In this document: piece by piece, positions 7,897 through 33,254 of the stretch
Position numbering within the stretch: position 1 is the stretch's first letter
Layout: every line of letters begins with the position of its first letter
Virus record (IMG/VR): IMGVR_UViG_3300036766_002289
Location: 154,056-218,055 of that record
Source: a virus
Length of the DNA: 64,000 bases
Reading direction: 5' to 3' (one strand)
Translations under genes and position numbers: made by a program
Notes under the pieces: model-generated
Databases searched by the model: none
Told to the model about the DNA's origin: nothing
What the model saw: only the letters and a program-made list of their open reading frames with translations

Positions 7897-9528
7897 ATGG
7901 CTAAATTAGAAAAGAACGAGTATCCCCGTAATTCTTCGGCAGATGATTTTCAGTGTTTTGGACCGCCAGCAACAGAAGACGGTCAGTTTGACACATGTAA
8001 AATCGCTGACCTTGGCTGCTTTACCCAAGACGGTAAAGACAGTAATAAGTATTACCATGCTGCTGTAGTTCAGCATAAAAAGACTAAAGCATGGTTTGTA
8101 TATTTTCAATGGGGTCGCACAGGAGCAACCAATCCCACATTTCAATTCGTTGAATGTGGTGGCGAATCCGATGCACAACGCACTTTTGCCGCACAACTCC
8201 ATGATAAAAACGATAAACGTGGTCAATGGACTACTGTAGCTGGAATCCGCACGCTTCAAGCCAAACCTAATAAGGATTGTTATCTAGTCCGTGCTATGGC
8301 AACTCGTTCAGTCGGCTTACCAGACGCTAAAACCATTAAGGTTAATGAAGGTGCAAAAGTTACTGCCGCACCTACCAGCAAATCTGATTCAAAGATTGAC
8401 AATCATACATTGCGTTTAATGCGGGACTTGAACGTGGCAACAGTGTCTTATACTCGTGGTGTTATGGCAGATGATTCTCTACCTACACAAAAGTCTATTG
8501 ATGAAGCACGTCAGATTCTCCAAGAAGCGCAGAAGCGACTTGTGGTTGTTGGTAACAACGTAAATCATCAAGTAGCCGATAGTGATTTGAATCAACTCAC
8601 AAGGCTGATGTATAGCCGTATTCCTAAGAAAAAGGCTTTACATTGTGCGGCTCATGAGTGGATTCTGAATAAGGACAATATTTTTTCTTGGACGGCGGAC
8701 TTAGACGCATTCGAATCAGCCCTTTACGTAACTGACATTGAAGATTCCAAGCAGACTGAAGATGTGTTTGCTGGTATGCCAATTACTATGGAATGGGTCG
8801 ATCCCACTTCTATTGCTGGAAAATTTGCATATAATTGGTGGCCGAAAGCAACTGCAAATCGGCACGGTGGTCTTGGTAAGATGACAATTAAAAATCTTTG
8901 GCGTGTCCAACGCCGTGGCGATGGGCACGGTGGTCTTGGTAAGATGACAATTAAAAATCTTTGGCGTGTCCAACGCCGTGGCGATGACACGAAGCTTTAT
9001 AGCTGCCAAGATTCGGTATTAAAGGAAAAACCTTCTATTAAGGAACGTCCTTTATTCCAACCCGAACGTTCCGATTTGCAGGACAATTCATTGATTAAGA
9101 AGTATACGGACACCAATACTTCTCTTCTATTTCATGGCACTCGCTCCGTTAATGTTCCTGGTATTCTTCGTGAAAACCTACGTCTTCCAAAGCAATTGGT
9201 TGGTGTTGTTATCACTGGTGCCATGTTCGGTCCTGGTATTTATTGGGCTGACGATTGGAAAAAGAGCGCTGGTTACACCTCATTAAGGGGTTCTTATTGG
9301 TCGTCTGGTGATGGAAGTGTCAAGAATCGTGACGCCTTCATGTTTGCTGGCGATGTTGTTCTTGGTAATCCTTATGTAGCACCATATTCTGGTGGTTATA
9401 CGTCACCTCCTAAAGGTCATCATAGTGTCTATGGTAAGGCTGGAAAGAGTGGCGTTCAGAATAATGAATTCATTATTTACGATACTAAACAGTATCAGCT
9501 TCGTTATTTAATCGAATTTGCAGCATAA
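7897..9528 (+). CDS. PARP-type ADP-ribosyltransferase with WGR domain
   Basis: 543 aa. WGR domain with YFQWGRTGA (about residues 70-78), a helical regulatory region (about 165-300), and the PARP catalytic domain from about 330. The H-Y-E triad is present: H413 in FHGTR, Y449 in GIYWAD, E524 in QNNEFIIY, so poly- or mono-ADP-ribosylation using NAD+ is expected. Residues about 322-363 hold a perfect 21-aa tandem duplication covering the first strand of the catalytic domain. Eraser genes lie at 12692, 32361 and 52390. Its own promoter precedes it. Confidence 0.93.
   Translation: MAKLEKNEYPRNSSADDFQCFGPPATEDGQFDTCKIADLGCFTQDGKDSNKYYHAAVVQHKKTKAWFVYFQWGRTGATNPTFQFVECGGESDAQRTFAAQLHDKNDKRGQWTTVAGIRTLQAKPNKDCYLVRAMATRSVGLPDAKTIKVNEGAKVTAAPTSKSDSKIDNHTLRLMRDLNVATVSYTRGVMADDSLPTQKSIDEARQILQEAQKRLVVVGNNVNHQVADSDLNQLTRLMYSRIPKKKALHCAAHEWILNKDNIFSWTADLDAFESALYVTDIEDSKQTEDVFAGMPITMEWVDPTSIAGKFAYNWWPKATANRHGGLGKMTIKNLWRVQRRGDGHGGLGKMTIKNLWRVQRRGDDTKLYSCQDSVLKEKPSIKERPLFQPERSDLQDNSLIKKYTDTNTSLLFHGTRSVNVPGILRENLRLPKQLVGVVITGAMFGPGIYWADDWKKSAGYTSLRGSYWSSGDGSVKNRDAFMFAGDVVLGNPYVAPYSGGYTSPPKGHHSVYGKAGKSGVQNNEFIIYDTKQYQLRYLIEFAA
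8861..8986 (+). repeat. perfect 63-bp tandem duplication inside the PARP gene
   Basis: Units 8861-8923 and 8924-8986 are identical at every base and keep the reading frame. The encoded unit includes KNLWRVQRRGD, which normally occurs once in PARP catalytic domains. Confidence 0.97.
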
Positions 9529-12691: not shown

Positions 12692-13675
12692 ATGATTACC
12701 AGAGATAAAGTTCGTGGTATGTTCTTAGGCGTTGCCATTGGGGATTCTTTTGGAATGCCTTTCGAAAGCAAGAAGTTTGAAGATGTTAAAGCCCTAAAAA
12801 GAACTAATACTTATCGAAGTAGTAATCGTGGTAAGAAGGGCAGTTGGACTGACGATACACAATTAACGATTGCTACAGCATTGGCCATGCTTGAATCAGG
12901 TGATTTCAACATGGACAACATTGCTGCTTGGCATGTCAAAGCTTATAAAGCTTCGACTTCAGGGTGGGGAGGCACGACTAGGGATGCTGTTAAAAAACTC
13001 TCTGAAGGAACACATTGGTCAGAATCTGGTAAATTTGTAGGACAAAATAATAGGGGATTTGGCAATGGTGTAGTGATGAAAGCAGCACCATTAGCTGCAT
13101 ACTTTGCTCTTGCCAATGACGACTTGGATTATGACAATTCCATTTGTGATTTTACAATGATGACCCACCAAACAAGTGTGGCTGTTAGTTCTTGTTATGC
13201 CCATGTAGAAGCTCTAATGTATTGTTTGCGAGAAACAATTGATAGCTTCCGCAGTAGAGAATTTATTGAGGCGATAGTGGAGTCCAGTACGATTGGTGCC
13301 GCTTATTTCCCAGAAACTTTCAAGGATGATATAACCACTAAGTTAGAATCTATAAGAGAAATATACAGTATTCCAGATTTACTTTTTGATGACGGTTATT
13401 TAGTCAGCGAATTTGGCGGCGGTTCTTGTTATGTTTATGATTCTTTACCATTTTCTTATGCATTTTTCCTACGTGGTCCATTCAGTATTGAGAGCATGTA
13501 TGATGTTGCATATGCTGGCGGTGACTCTGATACAAATGCCTCCATCGTTGCAAGCATGATCGGCGCAATCTGTGGAACGAAAGTTTTCCCAAAAACTCTG
13601 GTAGAAGGATTATCTGCAAAAAATCAAATTTTGAGAATAGCCGACCTGTTTTATGAAAAGTTCTTTACAAATTGA
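12692..13675 (+). CDS. ADP-ribosylglycohydrolase (ADPRH/DraG family), copy 1
   Basis: 327 aa. Metal-binding motifs GSWTDDTQL (about residue 50) and YAGGDSDTNASI (about 275) supply the dinuclear Mg ligands of the family. It hydrolyses ADP-ribose from proteins or small molecules. It lies 3.2 kb downstream of the PARP gene on the same strand. A second copy is at 32361; the two are divergent. Confidence 0.9.
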   Translation: MITRDKVRGMFLGVAIGDSFGMPFESKKFEDVKALKRTNTYRSSNRGKKGSWTDDTQLTIATALAMLESGDFNMDNIAAWHVKAYKASTSGWGGTTRDAVKKLSEGTHWSESGKFVGQNNRGFGNGVVMKAAPLAAYFALANDDLDYDNSICDFTMMTHQTSVAVSSCYAHVEALMYCLRETIDSFRSREFIEAIVESSTIGAAYFPETFKDDITTKLESIREIYSIPDLLFDDGYLVSEFGGGSCYVYDSLPFSYAFFLRGPFSIESMYDVAYAGGDSDTNASIVASMIGAICGTKVFPKTLVEGLSAKNQILRIADLFYEKFFTN

Positions 13676-14167: not shown

Positions 14168-14794
14168 ATGGCTATTCTCAAGAAAAAAGATAATGTGAAA
14201 ACACCAGCACAGATGCGTGTTCTAATTGCCAAGGATGTACTGGAGATGCTACCGCTCTTGCATCCAGTGCAGGGAACGTACCTATTGCTAAAAGAATCAC
14301 TCCGTAAAGACTTACGTGACGCCAAGACAAATATGAAATTTGTTGCTAGTAATTGTAAAGTGTGCGCTCTGGGTGCCTGTTTCCTTGGATGGGTTCATCA
14401 TTTCAATACGCTTTCCATACTTGATCTTAATTGCACCGACCATGAGCAAATGATTAGATTGATGAGCGATGTTTTTGATGCAGGTCAACTCGAAATGATT
14501 GAGGCAGCGTTTGAGGGATTTGATAGGTTAGCTAGTTATGTAACGCGCTACCCCGATCTTCATGACCGCCTTCGCGCCATCATGGAAAACATCGTTGTAA
14601 ATAAAGGAACTTTTGTCCCATTGGATAATCAAATGGAAGCTTCATGCACTTGGGGTGACGGCCCTGATGTACTGCTAAGCATCAACGGCACACATTATGA
14701 TTTAACTGCTGACGAGGCAATACGGTTATCTGTGGATTTAAGTCTAGCAGCAGCATGGGCAAAAGAGCAGAATGAACAAACACTTTGCCGATAA
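14168..14794 (+). CDS. hypothetical protein of a DUF6197-like phage family
   Basis: 208 aa. The segment NCKVCALGACFLGWV (about residue 60) recalls the CALGA motif of DUF6197-type proteins. Otherwise helical. No function known. It overlaps the next gene by 23 nt. Confidence 0.55.
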   Translation: MAILKKKDNVKTPAQMRVLIAKDVLEMLPLLHPVQGTYLLLKESLRKDLRDAKTNMKFVASNCKVCALGACFLGWVHHFNTLSILDLNCTDHEQMIRLMSDVFDAGQLEMIEAAFEGFDRLASYVTRYPDLHDRLRAIMENIVVNKGTFVPLDNQMEASCTWGDGPDVLLSINGTHYDLTADEAIRLSVDLSLAAAWAKEQNEQTLCR

Positions 14795-15065
14795 ACTGTT
14801 GTCTGGGGAAACCGTTGAATGTCGTCCGCGTGGTAGCTCCATGACCCCTAAGATTAAGTCTGGCCAATTGATAACAATATCACCAGACCTATCTGAACTA
14901 CATAAGGGTGACGTAGTGTTCTGTAAGGTTAAAGGCAAGTATTTCGTTCATCTGTTATCTGCTATCCAAGGTGAACGTTATCAGATAAGTAATAACCACA
15001 ACCATGTTAATGGCTGGATTGGCAAAAATTCTATGTTTGGTAAAGTAGTAAAGGTATCAGACTAA
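14772..15065 (+). CDS. S24/S26-like peptidase fold protein
   Basis: 97 aa. RPRGSSMTPKIKSGQLITIS and GDVVFCKVKGKYFVHLL match the beta-fold and nucleophile region (Ser in GSSM) of LexA/signal-peptidase-like proteases. There is no DNA-binding or membrane domain, and the general-base Lys cannot be placed with certainty. It may be a mini-protease or an inactive relative. Confidence 0.6.
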   Translation: MNKHFADKLLSGETVECRPRGSSMTPKIKSGQLITISPDLSELHKGDVVFCKVKGKYFVHLLSAIQGERYQISNNHNHVNGWIGKNSMFGKVVKVSD

Positions 15066-15253
15066 TGGAACTCCAGAAACGAAAACCAGAATATGCAATT
15101 CCAATATGGTGTCAAATGCCAATGGAGGAACATTTGTGTTTTGGTGGCTGTTGGGGAATTTCGAGTGGTAGAGTCGCGGAGGAAGGGCACGAATACTGTA
15201 AGGACTGTGAGTATAACGAAGATAATCTAAATGTGTCCAGTGGTGTAAGGTAG
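15065..15253 (+). CDS. small cysteine-rich hypothetical protein
   Basis: 62 aa with CFGGC and YCKDCEY, a possible zinc site. It starts in a TAATG overlap with the previous stop. Its last codons run into the tRNA-like element beginning at 15234, so the end of the message may be structured. Confidence 0.5.
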   Translation: MELQKRKPEYAIPIWCQMPMEEHLCFGGCWGISSGRVAEEGHEYCKDCEYNEDNLNVSSGVR

Positions 15254-15418
15254 CACACTTTGGCTGAGAAGGTAAGGTTCGATTCCTATGTGGTGTTAAG
15301 GGCACGCCAGATTCAACTGGAAGTTTTAGGTTAAATTCCTAAACAGTGGTGTAAGGCTGTGATGAGCAGAGCGCACATCGAAGCCAAGGTAGATAAGGTT
15401 CGAATCCTTGCTGGGCAA
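15234..15418 (+). ncRNA. tRNA-like element with a large insertion in the anticodon arm
   Basis: TGTCCAG (15234-15240) pairs along all 7 positions with CTGGGCA (15411-15417). A D-stem GTGT/GCAC (15243-15256), a T-arm TAAGG-TTCGAAT-CCTTG (15394-15410) and a 7-bp helix CTTTGGC/GCCAAGG (15258-15264/15383-15389) are in the right places. The loop of that helix is 118 nt and holds two more T-arm-like stretches (15273-15289, 15326-15342) and repeated D-arm-like AGTGGTGTAAGG (15239, 15345). No canonical anticodon can be read. It may be an intron-bearing, nested or decayed tRNA cluster. Confidence 0.55.
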
Positions 15419-15435
15419 TTAAAAAGGAGATTACT

Positions 15436-15807
15436 ATGAAAGACCTTGTGATGGAAGTCCAGAATTTTTTTAACGGTATGAACAATGTAACCTTACTTGG
15501 TGGCCAAGTTCTGGCCCAAGTAAAAGTTGGTGATGAAGTTGAAATCGTCACCACTAGATCGGGCCGCAAAACCCGAATAGTTGGTATTAAACGATTCAAC
15601 CAAAGTCTAGACTGTGTTAATGGTGGTGTGGCTGGACTTCTATTTGAAGGAATAGGAGACTTAGATTTTAGGACTACTCCACTACCCCCAAATCCTTATA
15701 ATCCCAAGACTCAATTAGAAGAATATCTCAAGTTCAGCAGCAAAGACAACGATGCCGAAAACGTAAGGATCGTTAGGGCACCTCAACCTGTTGCTTGGCA
15801 GTTTTGA
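15436..15807 (+). CDS. stand-alone EF-Tu domain II-like beta-barrel
   Basis: 123 aa. VTLLGGQVLAQVKVGDEVEI, RIVGIKRFNQSLD and GGVAGLLFEGIGDLDF follow the strand order of elongation factor Tu domain II (G-x-V..G.IKVGDEVEI..., LLRGI). No GTPase domain and no domain III are present; the last 35 aa are Pro-rich and unassigned. It may bind tRNA ends or mimic EF-Tu; that is inference. AAGGAG precedes the start. It sits between the tRNA-like element and IF-1. Confidence 0.7.
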   Translation: MKDLVMEVQNFFNGMNNVTLLGGQVLAQVKVGDEVEIVTTRSGRKTRIVGIKRFNQSLDCVNGGVAGLLFEGIGDLDFRTTPLPPNPYNPKTQLEEYLKFSSKDNDAENVRIVRAPQPVAWQF

Positions 15808-15816
15808 GGACTAATC

Positions 15817-16026
15817 ATGAGAACACTACAATTAATATTTATGTTGCTCGGTGCGTTGCCAGCTTTGCTTATTACTAGGATGCTGCCAAATCCACATAGA
15901 AGCGGCAAACATGGACTCGCAGTATTGATGCATGTGTCGCTTATCAGCGGGACAATAATGGCTTTAATAGTCTTGGCATTGGCCTTATACATTATATTTA
16001 ATTTCCTTGAGGTCACAAATGCCTAA
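15817..16026 (+). CDS. small two-helix membrane protein
   Basis: 69 aa with two hydrophobic segments (about 5-20 and 36-62) around a short basic loop. GAGG lies upstream. No family recognised. Confidence 0.6.
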   Translation: MRTLQLIFMLLGALPALLITRMLPNPHRSGKHGLAVLMHVSLISGTIMALIVLALALYIIFNFLEVTNA

Positions 16027-16240
16027 AATTCTAGAAGAAGCCTTAATGTGGTTGGGAATTTGGGCAATTATTTTTAATATCTTTTTTGCTGTGCCCTTAT
16101 TCTTTTATTTAAGAAGCATATCAAGGGAGAAGTTTATATGCATCATGTATATTCTGCACCATTGGTTGCAGAATTTTGATTGTGGTTATGGGCAAGATGA
16201 AGTGTTGAGGGATTTAGCAAAGGTGGAAAAACATGTCTAA
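16019..16240 (+). CDS. small single-helix membrane protein
   Basis: 73 aa. One hydrophobic segment (about residues 9-32) then a charged C-terminus. The start at 16019 has TTGAGG upstream and overlaps the previous gene by 8 nt. Confidence 0.6.
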
Positions 16241-16451
16241 GGAAGATGTTATTCAGGCAGAAGGTAAAGTCTTAGAATCTTTGCCTAATGCACAGTTCAA
16301 AGTGAAGCTGGATACTGGTTATGAAATCATAGCCCATATATCTGGCAGGATGCGAAAGAACTTTATCAAGGTGATCCCAGGCGACGTTGTAGAAGTCGAG
16401 ATTTCACCTTATGATTTGACCAAGGGTCGAATCAGCCGTAGAACAAGATGA
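16233..16451 (+). CDS. infA: translation initiation factor IF-1
   Basis: 72 aa, the exact usual length. Motifs [18 protein letters not shown] and [13 protein letters not shown] are those of bacterial IF-1, an OB-fold protein that sits in the ribosomal A site with IF-2 and IF-3. Co-transcribed with small membrane proteins and directly followed, after 6 nt, by the tRNA(CUA) gene. A phage copy implies control of initiation. Confidence 0.96.
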
Positions 16452-16457
16452 TTGTAT

Positions 16458-16530
16458 GCTCTTGTAGCTCAATGGGAGAGCGACGAACTCTAAATTCGAT
16501 TGGTTGAGGGTTCGAATCCCTCCAAGAGCG
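16458..16530 (+). tRNA. suppressor tRNA, anticodon CUA (reads UAG)
   Basis: 73 nt. Acceptor stem GCTCTTG (16458-16464) pairs fully with CAAGAGC (16523-16529); discriminator G. D-arm GCTC-AATGGGA-GAGC, T-arm GAGGG-TTCGAAT-CCCTC. The anticodon stem CGAA/TTCG encloses the loop CTCTAAA, with U33, anticodon CUA (16490-16492) and A37; the outermost pair 27-43 is A-A. CCA is not encoded. The amino acid is unknown; G73 fits several, including Gln. Confidence 0.87.
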
Positions 16531-16532
16531 TT

Positions 16533-32109: not shown

Positions 32110-32364
32110 ATGGCTGGATATCATCTGAATGACATTCCCCGTGGCGAATACGGTGAGCTTTCTAAGGTAATTGAAGAAGCTTTAGAGCTAAAAGACGCTA
32201 TGGAACAAGGGCAGAAATTGATGTGTCTTATTGAGCTTGCCGATATACTCGGGGCCATCGAAGGATATTTAGAAAAATATTATGAAGGCAAGATTACTGT
32301 TGATGATCTTTTTAACATGTCCTATGCTACCAAAAGAGCTTTTGAGTCAGGATATAGAAAATGA
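32110..32364 (+). CDS. MazG-like NTP pyrophosphohydrolase
   Basis: 84 aa. GELSKVIEEALELKDAM and IELADILGAIEGYL supply the ExxE...ExxD metal motifs of all-alpha NTP pyrophosphatases. These hydrolyse NTPs or alarmone-like nucleotides, and phage copies can change host (p)ppGpp or dNTP balance. Coupled by ATGA to the second ADP-ribosylglycohydrolase. Confidence 0.8.
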   Translation: MAGYHLNDIPRGEYGELSKVIEEALELKDAMEQGQKLMCLIELADILGAIEGYLEKYYEGKITVDDLFNMSYATKRAFESGYRK

Positions 32365-33254
32365 GTATTGAAGATAAGAAACGTGGAGCATTCTGGGGCT
32401 TAATTATCGGGGACGCTCTTGGGGCACCCGTAGAATTTAAAATGCCTGGTGAATTTGTTCCAGTAACAGATTACCAGAGTGGTGGCCCACATAGCCTTAA
32501 TAAGGGCGAATGGACTGATGATACAAGTCTTGCTCTTGCTCTTGCTGATAGTCTGGCCAATGGCTGGAATACTAAAGACCAACTTGACAAGTATTGTAGC
32601 TGGTATGAAGAAGGCAAGTACTCCGTCAATGGTTGGTGTTTTGATATCGGTGGCACTACAAAACATGCCTTGGAAAACTATAGGGACAGTGGTAATCCAG
32701 AAACTTGTGGGCTAGCCGATGATGATTATTCAGGGAATGGTTCGATTATGAGATTGGCACCAGTGCCAATTAAATATTCAGAATTGTTTTTTGATCTAGA
32801 TGAACTCATCAGATTAGCAGAAGAATCTAGTGCTACAACTCATGCAAGTAAGAAATGTAGAGATTGTTGTGCATACCTAGCCACATTAATAGCTGGATTA
32901 ATCAATGGAATTGATAGGGAAATCTTACTGAATGACCCTTATTATATTCCACCAAAAGTATGTACAGCCGTAAGACTAGTCGCAGAAGGTAGTTACCGCA
33001 AAAACAAGGTCAAAGGCAGTGGTTATGTAGTAGAAAGCTTGGAAGCTGCTTTATGGGCTTTTCACAAAGCTGAGAATTTCAGGAAAGCTGTCTTGGCTGC
33101 GGTTAATCTAGGAGATGATGCGGACACTACGGCGGCGGTCTGTGGGCAGTTGGCTGGGGCTTATTGGGGGTTTGAAGCTATTCCAGAGGAATGGCGTATT
33201 AATTTAGCTAAAAATGATTTAATAGAAGGCTATTTTAATGCCCTGATAAAATAA
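32361..33254 (+). CDS. ADP-ribosylglycohydrolase (ADPRH/DraG family), copy 2
   Basis: 297 aa. GEWTDDTSLALAL (about residue 47), FDIGGTTKHAL, GNGSIMRLAPV and NLGDDADTTAAVCGQLAG (about 252) are the full set of family motifs, including Mg ligands. It is closer to the classic bacterial family pattern than copy 1 at 12692. Two erasers with one PARP suggest different substrates or timing. Confidence 0.93.
   Translation: MSIEDKKRGAFWGLIIGDALGAPVEFKMPGEFVPVTDYQSGGPHSLNKGEWTDDTSLALALADSLANGWNTKDQLDKYCSWYEEGKYSVNGWCFDIGGTTKHALENYRDSGNPETCGLADDDYSGNGSIMRLAPVPIKYSELFFDLDELIRLAEESSATTHASKKCRDCCAYLATLIAGLINGIDREILLNDPYYIPPKVCTAVRLVAEGSYRKNKVKGSGYVVESLEAALWAFHKAENFRKAVLAAVNLGDDADTTAAVCGQLAGAYWGFEAIPEEWRINLAKNDLIEGYFNALIK

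Follow-up and report, generated by a model that had tools for sequence, protein, structure and literature searches.

Introduction

Genes for translation factors have already been reported in huge phages, among them those for IF-1 and EF-Tu (Al-Shayeb et al., 2020; PMC7162821). Several contacts of EF-Tu are known at the level of single residues: F218, E259 and R262 touch the 3' acceptor end of the tRNA and R288 touches the 5' phosphate, while F218 and E259 double as contacts for the CdiA-CT toxin of EC869 (PMC9071432). Domain II of EF-Tu touches the 30S shoulder (PMC5311926). EF-Tu is also the target of the Lit protease: in T4, a segment of the capsid protein called Gol docks on domains II and III, and this triggers Lit to cleave domain I at Gly59-Ile60 (PMC3014915).

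Among open-licence papers, we found no report of a phage gene for EF-Tu domain II alone. Here we describe a gene of a T4-like huge phage that almost certainly encodes such a free-standing domain, and which is known from one metagenomic record alone. A translation factor cut down to a lone non-GTPase domain offers a simple natural experiment on what EF-Tu domain II can do by itself. If it does bind the ribosome or a partner of EF-Tu, it would represent a minimal elongation inhibitor or decoy, and would offer a way into how phages steer the translation of their hosts or evade EF-Tu-sensing defences.

Results and discussion

The gene lies in a stretch missing from the closest relative

We analysed a stretch of 64,000 nucleotides (the window), which is part of a virus record of 390,039 bases. 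The phage has a T4-like terminase and a gp23-type capsid protein (PF07068, E 3.8e-88), and among known phages the one closest to it is LR756511.1 (595 kb; capsid protein 87%, terminase 67%). The features of the locus are as follows.

14772-15065, plus strand: S24-peptidase-like protein, 97 aa; 79% identical in LR756511; left synteny anchor
15065-15253, plus strand: small ORF, 62 aa; no relatives found
15066-16232, plus strand: stretch missing from LR756511, 1.17 kb between the S24-peptidase and IF-1 genes
15230-15420, plus strand: debris resembling the 3' part of tRNAs, with T-arm-like copies at 15275, 15328 and 15396
15421-15435, plus strand: ribosome-binding site region upstream of the ATG, sequence AAAAAGGAGATTACT
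15436-15807, plus strand: stand-alone EF-Tu domain II gene, 123 aa; barrel at about residues 2-78, predicted disordered tail at 79-123
15817-16026, plus strand: small hydrophobic ORF, 69 aa; probable membrane protein, judged by eye; no relatives found
16019-16240, plus strand: small hydrophobic ORF, 73 aa; probable membrane protein, judged by eye; no relatives found
16233-16451, plus strand: translation initiation factor IF-1, 72 aa (TIGR00008, 109 bits against a cut-off of 61; PF01176); right synteny anchor
16457-16531, plus strand: tRNA with a CUA (amber) anticodon; also present 3' of IF-1 in LR756511

The surrounding gene order is conserved between the window and LR756511, in which the S24-peptidase ORF and IF-1 are only 2 bases apart and no match to PF03144 was found. 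In the window, the domain II gene shares the intervening 1.17 kb with the tRNA-like debris and three small ORFs that lack relatives. The three T-arm-like 14-mers in this debris, arranged in tandem within the stretch missing from LR756511, match the T-arms of the phage's own tRNAs; the debris itself was called neither by ARAGORN at default settings nor by Rfam, and its identity as a real tRNA or known RNA is unsupported.

The neighbouring IF-1 (phrog_30201; Al-Shayeb et al., 2020) places the gene in a context of translation takeover, but it is a different factor and, unlike the domain II gene, occurs in many phages. Both IF-1 and the amber-type tRNA are conserved in LR756511. Since the domain II gene sits in a stretch absent from that phage, its proximity to IF-1 may be coincidental, and the presence of the amber-type tRNA in both phages indicates that this tRNA is independent of the domain II gene.

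The domain II ORF, which ends in a TGA stop codon, is preceded by a strong Shine-Dalgarno sequence, AAAAAGGAG, suitably spaced from the start codon. Its codon usage scores 0.157 log-odds per codon, close to the mean of the window genes (0.152, sd 0.044, n=54), whereas the alternative frames score -0.41 and -0.44. The phage-like codon usage and the strong Shine-Dalgarno suggest that the gene is in use; from its sequence it appears to be an intact, well-started gene of the phage that is presumably expressed.

The protein matches domain II of EF-Tu over residues 2-78

The initial annotation had placed a 123-aa ORF at exactly 15436-15807 on the plus strand and matched it to EF-Tu domain II alone. 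This holds for residues 2-78, over which the homology extends. The Pfam family GTP_EFTU_D2 (PF03144) matches residues 28-79 at 30.4 bits, barely above its cut-off of 30.3. A search of NCBIfam returned EF-Tu models exclusively, with the match starting at residue 2-3; the score against the EF-Tu model TIGR00485 was 28.6 bits, far below the cut-off of 522 that defines a full EF-Tu. In phmmer searches of the PDB, EF-Tu was found at E 3.1e-7. Against an EF-Tu profile the protein scored 40.4 bits, a value reached by none of 1000 shuffled sequences (best shuffle 8.2), with the qualification that this profile was built from EF-Tus retrieved mainly by the shared word KVGDEVEI and is biased towards the protein; the Pfam and PDB matches are independent of it. 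Identity to bacterial EF-Tu is 26-36% over most matched parts, or about 30%.

Beyond domain II, little of EF-Tu can be recognized. Pairwise BLAST and phmmer alignments extend weakly as far as the first domain III strand, but homology of the tail to domain III is not significant, with 68-122 of 1000 shuffled tails scoring equally. No match to the EF-Tu G domain (PF00009), or any other translational GTPase domain, was found across the whole 390-kb record, and in a tblastn search of the record with EF-Tu the domain II ORF was the sole significant match, with no remains of domain I or III around it. Judged from sequence, the 123-aa protein has lost the GTPase domain and retains little or nothing of domain III.

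The fold model agrees with this assignment. Given an EF-Tu alignment, the predictor folded residues 4-71 into a barrel (pLDDT block means mostly 75-87) and predicted disorder for the tail from residue 79 onwards (pLDDT <50). Comparison of the model with EF-Tu domain II gave Z 11.1 and rmsd 2.1 over 86 aligned residues, and Foldseek gave rmsd 1.4-2.1 in barrel-only alignments of 71-75 columns. Because the predictor's alignment consisted of EF-Tus, the model is consistent with a domain II barrel but is no proof of one; the model made from the single sequence was uninformative (pLDDT 32). Among viral models, Foldseek found no match below E 0.001. Overall, sequence together with a fold model biased towards EF-Tu by the homologues in its alignment supports the proposed identity as a free EF-Tu domain II: it is hard to see the protein as anything other than a divergent, free-standing form of the bacterial domain. 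It resembles that domain (TIGR00485 / PF03144) in sequence and in its predicted barrel fold, and differs from bacterial EF-Tu in having its own gene, no GTPase domain, no significant domain III and mostly altered tRNA-acceptor contacts.

A stand-alone copy is rare, but decay is unlikely

A stand-alone domain II was found in none of 54 other phage records, many of which are fragments; these comprised 28 IF-1-bearing IMG/VR records, 18 further viral records, LR756511 and seven named phages including Lak and T4. PF03144 had no match in the 28 IF-1-bearing records. In the 18 further records it matched two proteins, both full-length EF-Tu, and in the seven named phages a single 683-aa frame of EF-G size. 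The two full-length phage EF-Tus, of 412 aa (L132, a 195-kb record) and 390 aa (L157, a 223-kb phage of the same terminase group), are likewise EF-Tu-derived genes in large phages (compare Al-Shayeb et al., 2020; PMC7162821), but unlike the 123-aa protein they retain all three domains. As the 390-aa EF-Tu is only 24% identical to the 123-aa protein, it is no obvious parent of the domain II gene. In this phage EF-Tu (L157 1198-2370, minus strand), switch I is apparently strongly divergent from that of bacterial EF-Tu.

No close relatives other than full EF-Tu were found in viral contigs, in searches that rely on shared short peptides and can miss distant ones. The best 80 matches in bacterial genomes were EF-Tu, whole or cut at a contig end, plus one 293-aa frame, and tblastn matches in phages and plasmids were EF-Tu wherever inspected or annotated. 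In 18 bacterial genomes PF03144 fell nearly always in long proteins. The two exceptions are short frames for stand-alone domain-II-like proteins of 83-85 aa (L159 372-629 and L160 422-673, both minus strand), which score below the PF03144 cut-off. Although these too are single free domain-II-type proteins, they appear to form a separate lineage: they have no significant pairwise match to the phage protein, which scores 3.7 bits against a profile of this group (two members) compared with 40.4 bits against the EF-Tu profile.

One reading of this distribution is that a full EF-Tu was formerly present in the phage or its ancestry, and that domain II is the last, transient trace of it, with little if any function. 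The full-length EF-Tus in two other phages, the location of the gene in a variable stretch with tRNA-like debris and the absence of a stand-alone homologue from the other records would all fit. However, neutral decay to about 30% identity is expected to introduce stops, whereas the frame is intact over 123 codons at that identity, with a good start and phage-like codons, and neither domain I nor the rest of domain III can be traced nearby by tblastn. The intact frame and codon usage make use likelier than decay, and we consider such a relic unlikely.

Most tRNA-contacting residues have changed

With numbering anchored on F218 of EF-Tu, the 123-aa protein keeps F218, T225, G229, F261, L265, G271, G275, L277 and G280. 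The changes include E215Q, D216N, R223N, T228G, E259K, R262N and N273V; G222 is altered together with R223 in the loop joining the first two strands, and R288 pairs with F in the terminal part of the alignment, which is less certain. Among the four acceptor-end contacts considered (F218, E259, R262 and R288), F218 alone is retained (1/4). E215, D216, T228 and N273, which we take to line the aminoacyl pocket of EF-Tu, are all among the changed positions. Hydrophobic and glycine positions are retained in 10 of 21 cases and polar positions in 4 of 19, a difference that is at most suggestive (Fisher p 0.10). In the alignment, then, the barrel core appears partly retained while most tRNA acceptor-end residues are altered.

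These changes in acceptor-contact and pocket residues make it unlikely that the protein holds tRNA in the canonical manner, or that it serves as a decoy for a toxin of the CdiA-CT type. They weaken the earlier suggestion that the domain protects a special tRNA. A role in holding the aminoacyl end of the amber-type or another phage tRNA, for protection or delivery, could draw on the amber-type tRNA 650 bases downstream, the debris directly upstream, the 48 tRNA calls in the record (47 outside the window and one inside) and the retained F218. Against it, R223 is changed along with the pocket residues, E259 and R262, R288 is not retained, the site would be incomplete with domain I absent and domain III unclear, and LR756511 has the amber-type tRNA but no domain II. 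We regard this role as very improbable, and a mimic of domain II that binds another partner as more likely.

The same pattern of altered ligand residues and a partly retained core would also be expected if a stable fold had been reused for a task unrelated to translation, and domain-II-like barrels do occur in other proteins, such as the C-terminal domain of U32 peptidases found by Foldseek. The EF-Tu sequence is still recognizable, however, beyond what would be expected had all constraints moved, and such a reassignment seems to us about as doubtful as simple decay.

A possible mimic of EF-Tu domain II

The reading we favour, with a probability of roughly 40%, is that the phage protein mimics EF-Tu domain II by binding one of its partners. 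By its sequence the gene derives from domain II of a bacterial EF-Tu, and the free barrel would occupy a site normally taken by domain II of the host EF-Tu. One candidate is the 30S shoulder, which the protein might occupy during translation takeover alongside the phage's own IF-1, and which would fit the ribosome binding suggested in the initial annotation; another is some protein that docks on EF-Tu domain II. A second binding function might reside in the disordered tail. A more specific version, in which the free domain competes with host EF-Tu for a partner such as a Gol-like capsid segment or an EF-Tu-sensing defence, or blocks the 30S shoulder site and so redirects elongation, is decidedly less likely than the general reading.

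The initial annotation had also raised the idea of a decoy against abortive-infection systems that cleave EF-Tu. In its simple form this fails for Lit, because Lit cuts domain I and that domain is absent from the 123-aa protein. An indirect form may still apply, in which the free domain attaches to the Gol-like segment of the major capsid protein of the phage itself and thereby spares host EF-Tu from a Lit-type protease, or aids capsid folding. The gp23-type capsid protein has a stretch, IRRIYPQLIANKIVSVQPLLGPTGLVYYLR, aligned to T4 gp23, which makes the Gol idea testable but provides a lead only. T4 Gol acts on EF-Tu through domains II and III (PMC3014915), which lends the idea some plausibility; equally, binding assigned to both domains is less easily ascribed to domain II by itself. 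Furthermore, with EF-Tu and capsid protein each present in very large amounts, a small decoy would have to be highly expressed; no Lit-like defence and no host have been linked to the phage, and T4, LR756511 and XacN1 share the capsid family yet have no such gene. We consider an anti-defence or assembly function of this kind improbable, although less so than a tRNA role.

Other features

In the same window, a WGR+PARP ADP-ribosyltransferase gene (7897-9528) and an ADP-ribosylglycohydrolase gene (12692-13675) lie a few kb apart, and both are conserved in LR756511. A search of IMG/VR for relatives through the PARP gene returned none. A third ORF (window 32361-33254) matches the LR756511 copy of the ADP-ribosylglycohydrolase gene. 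Elsewhere in the phage, the gp20-type portal protein is interrupted by an intein splicing domain (L046 14396-16927). An actin-like protein (L045 18908-19924) matches the Pfam Volactin family.
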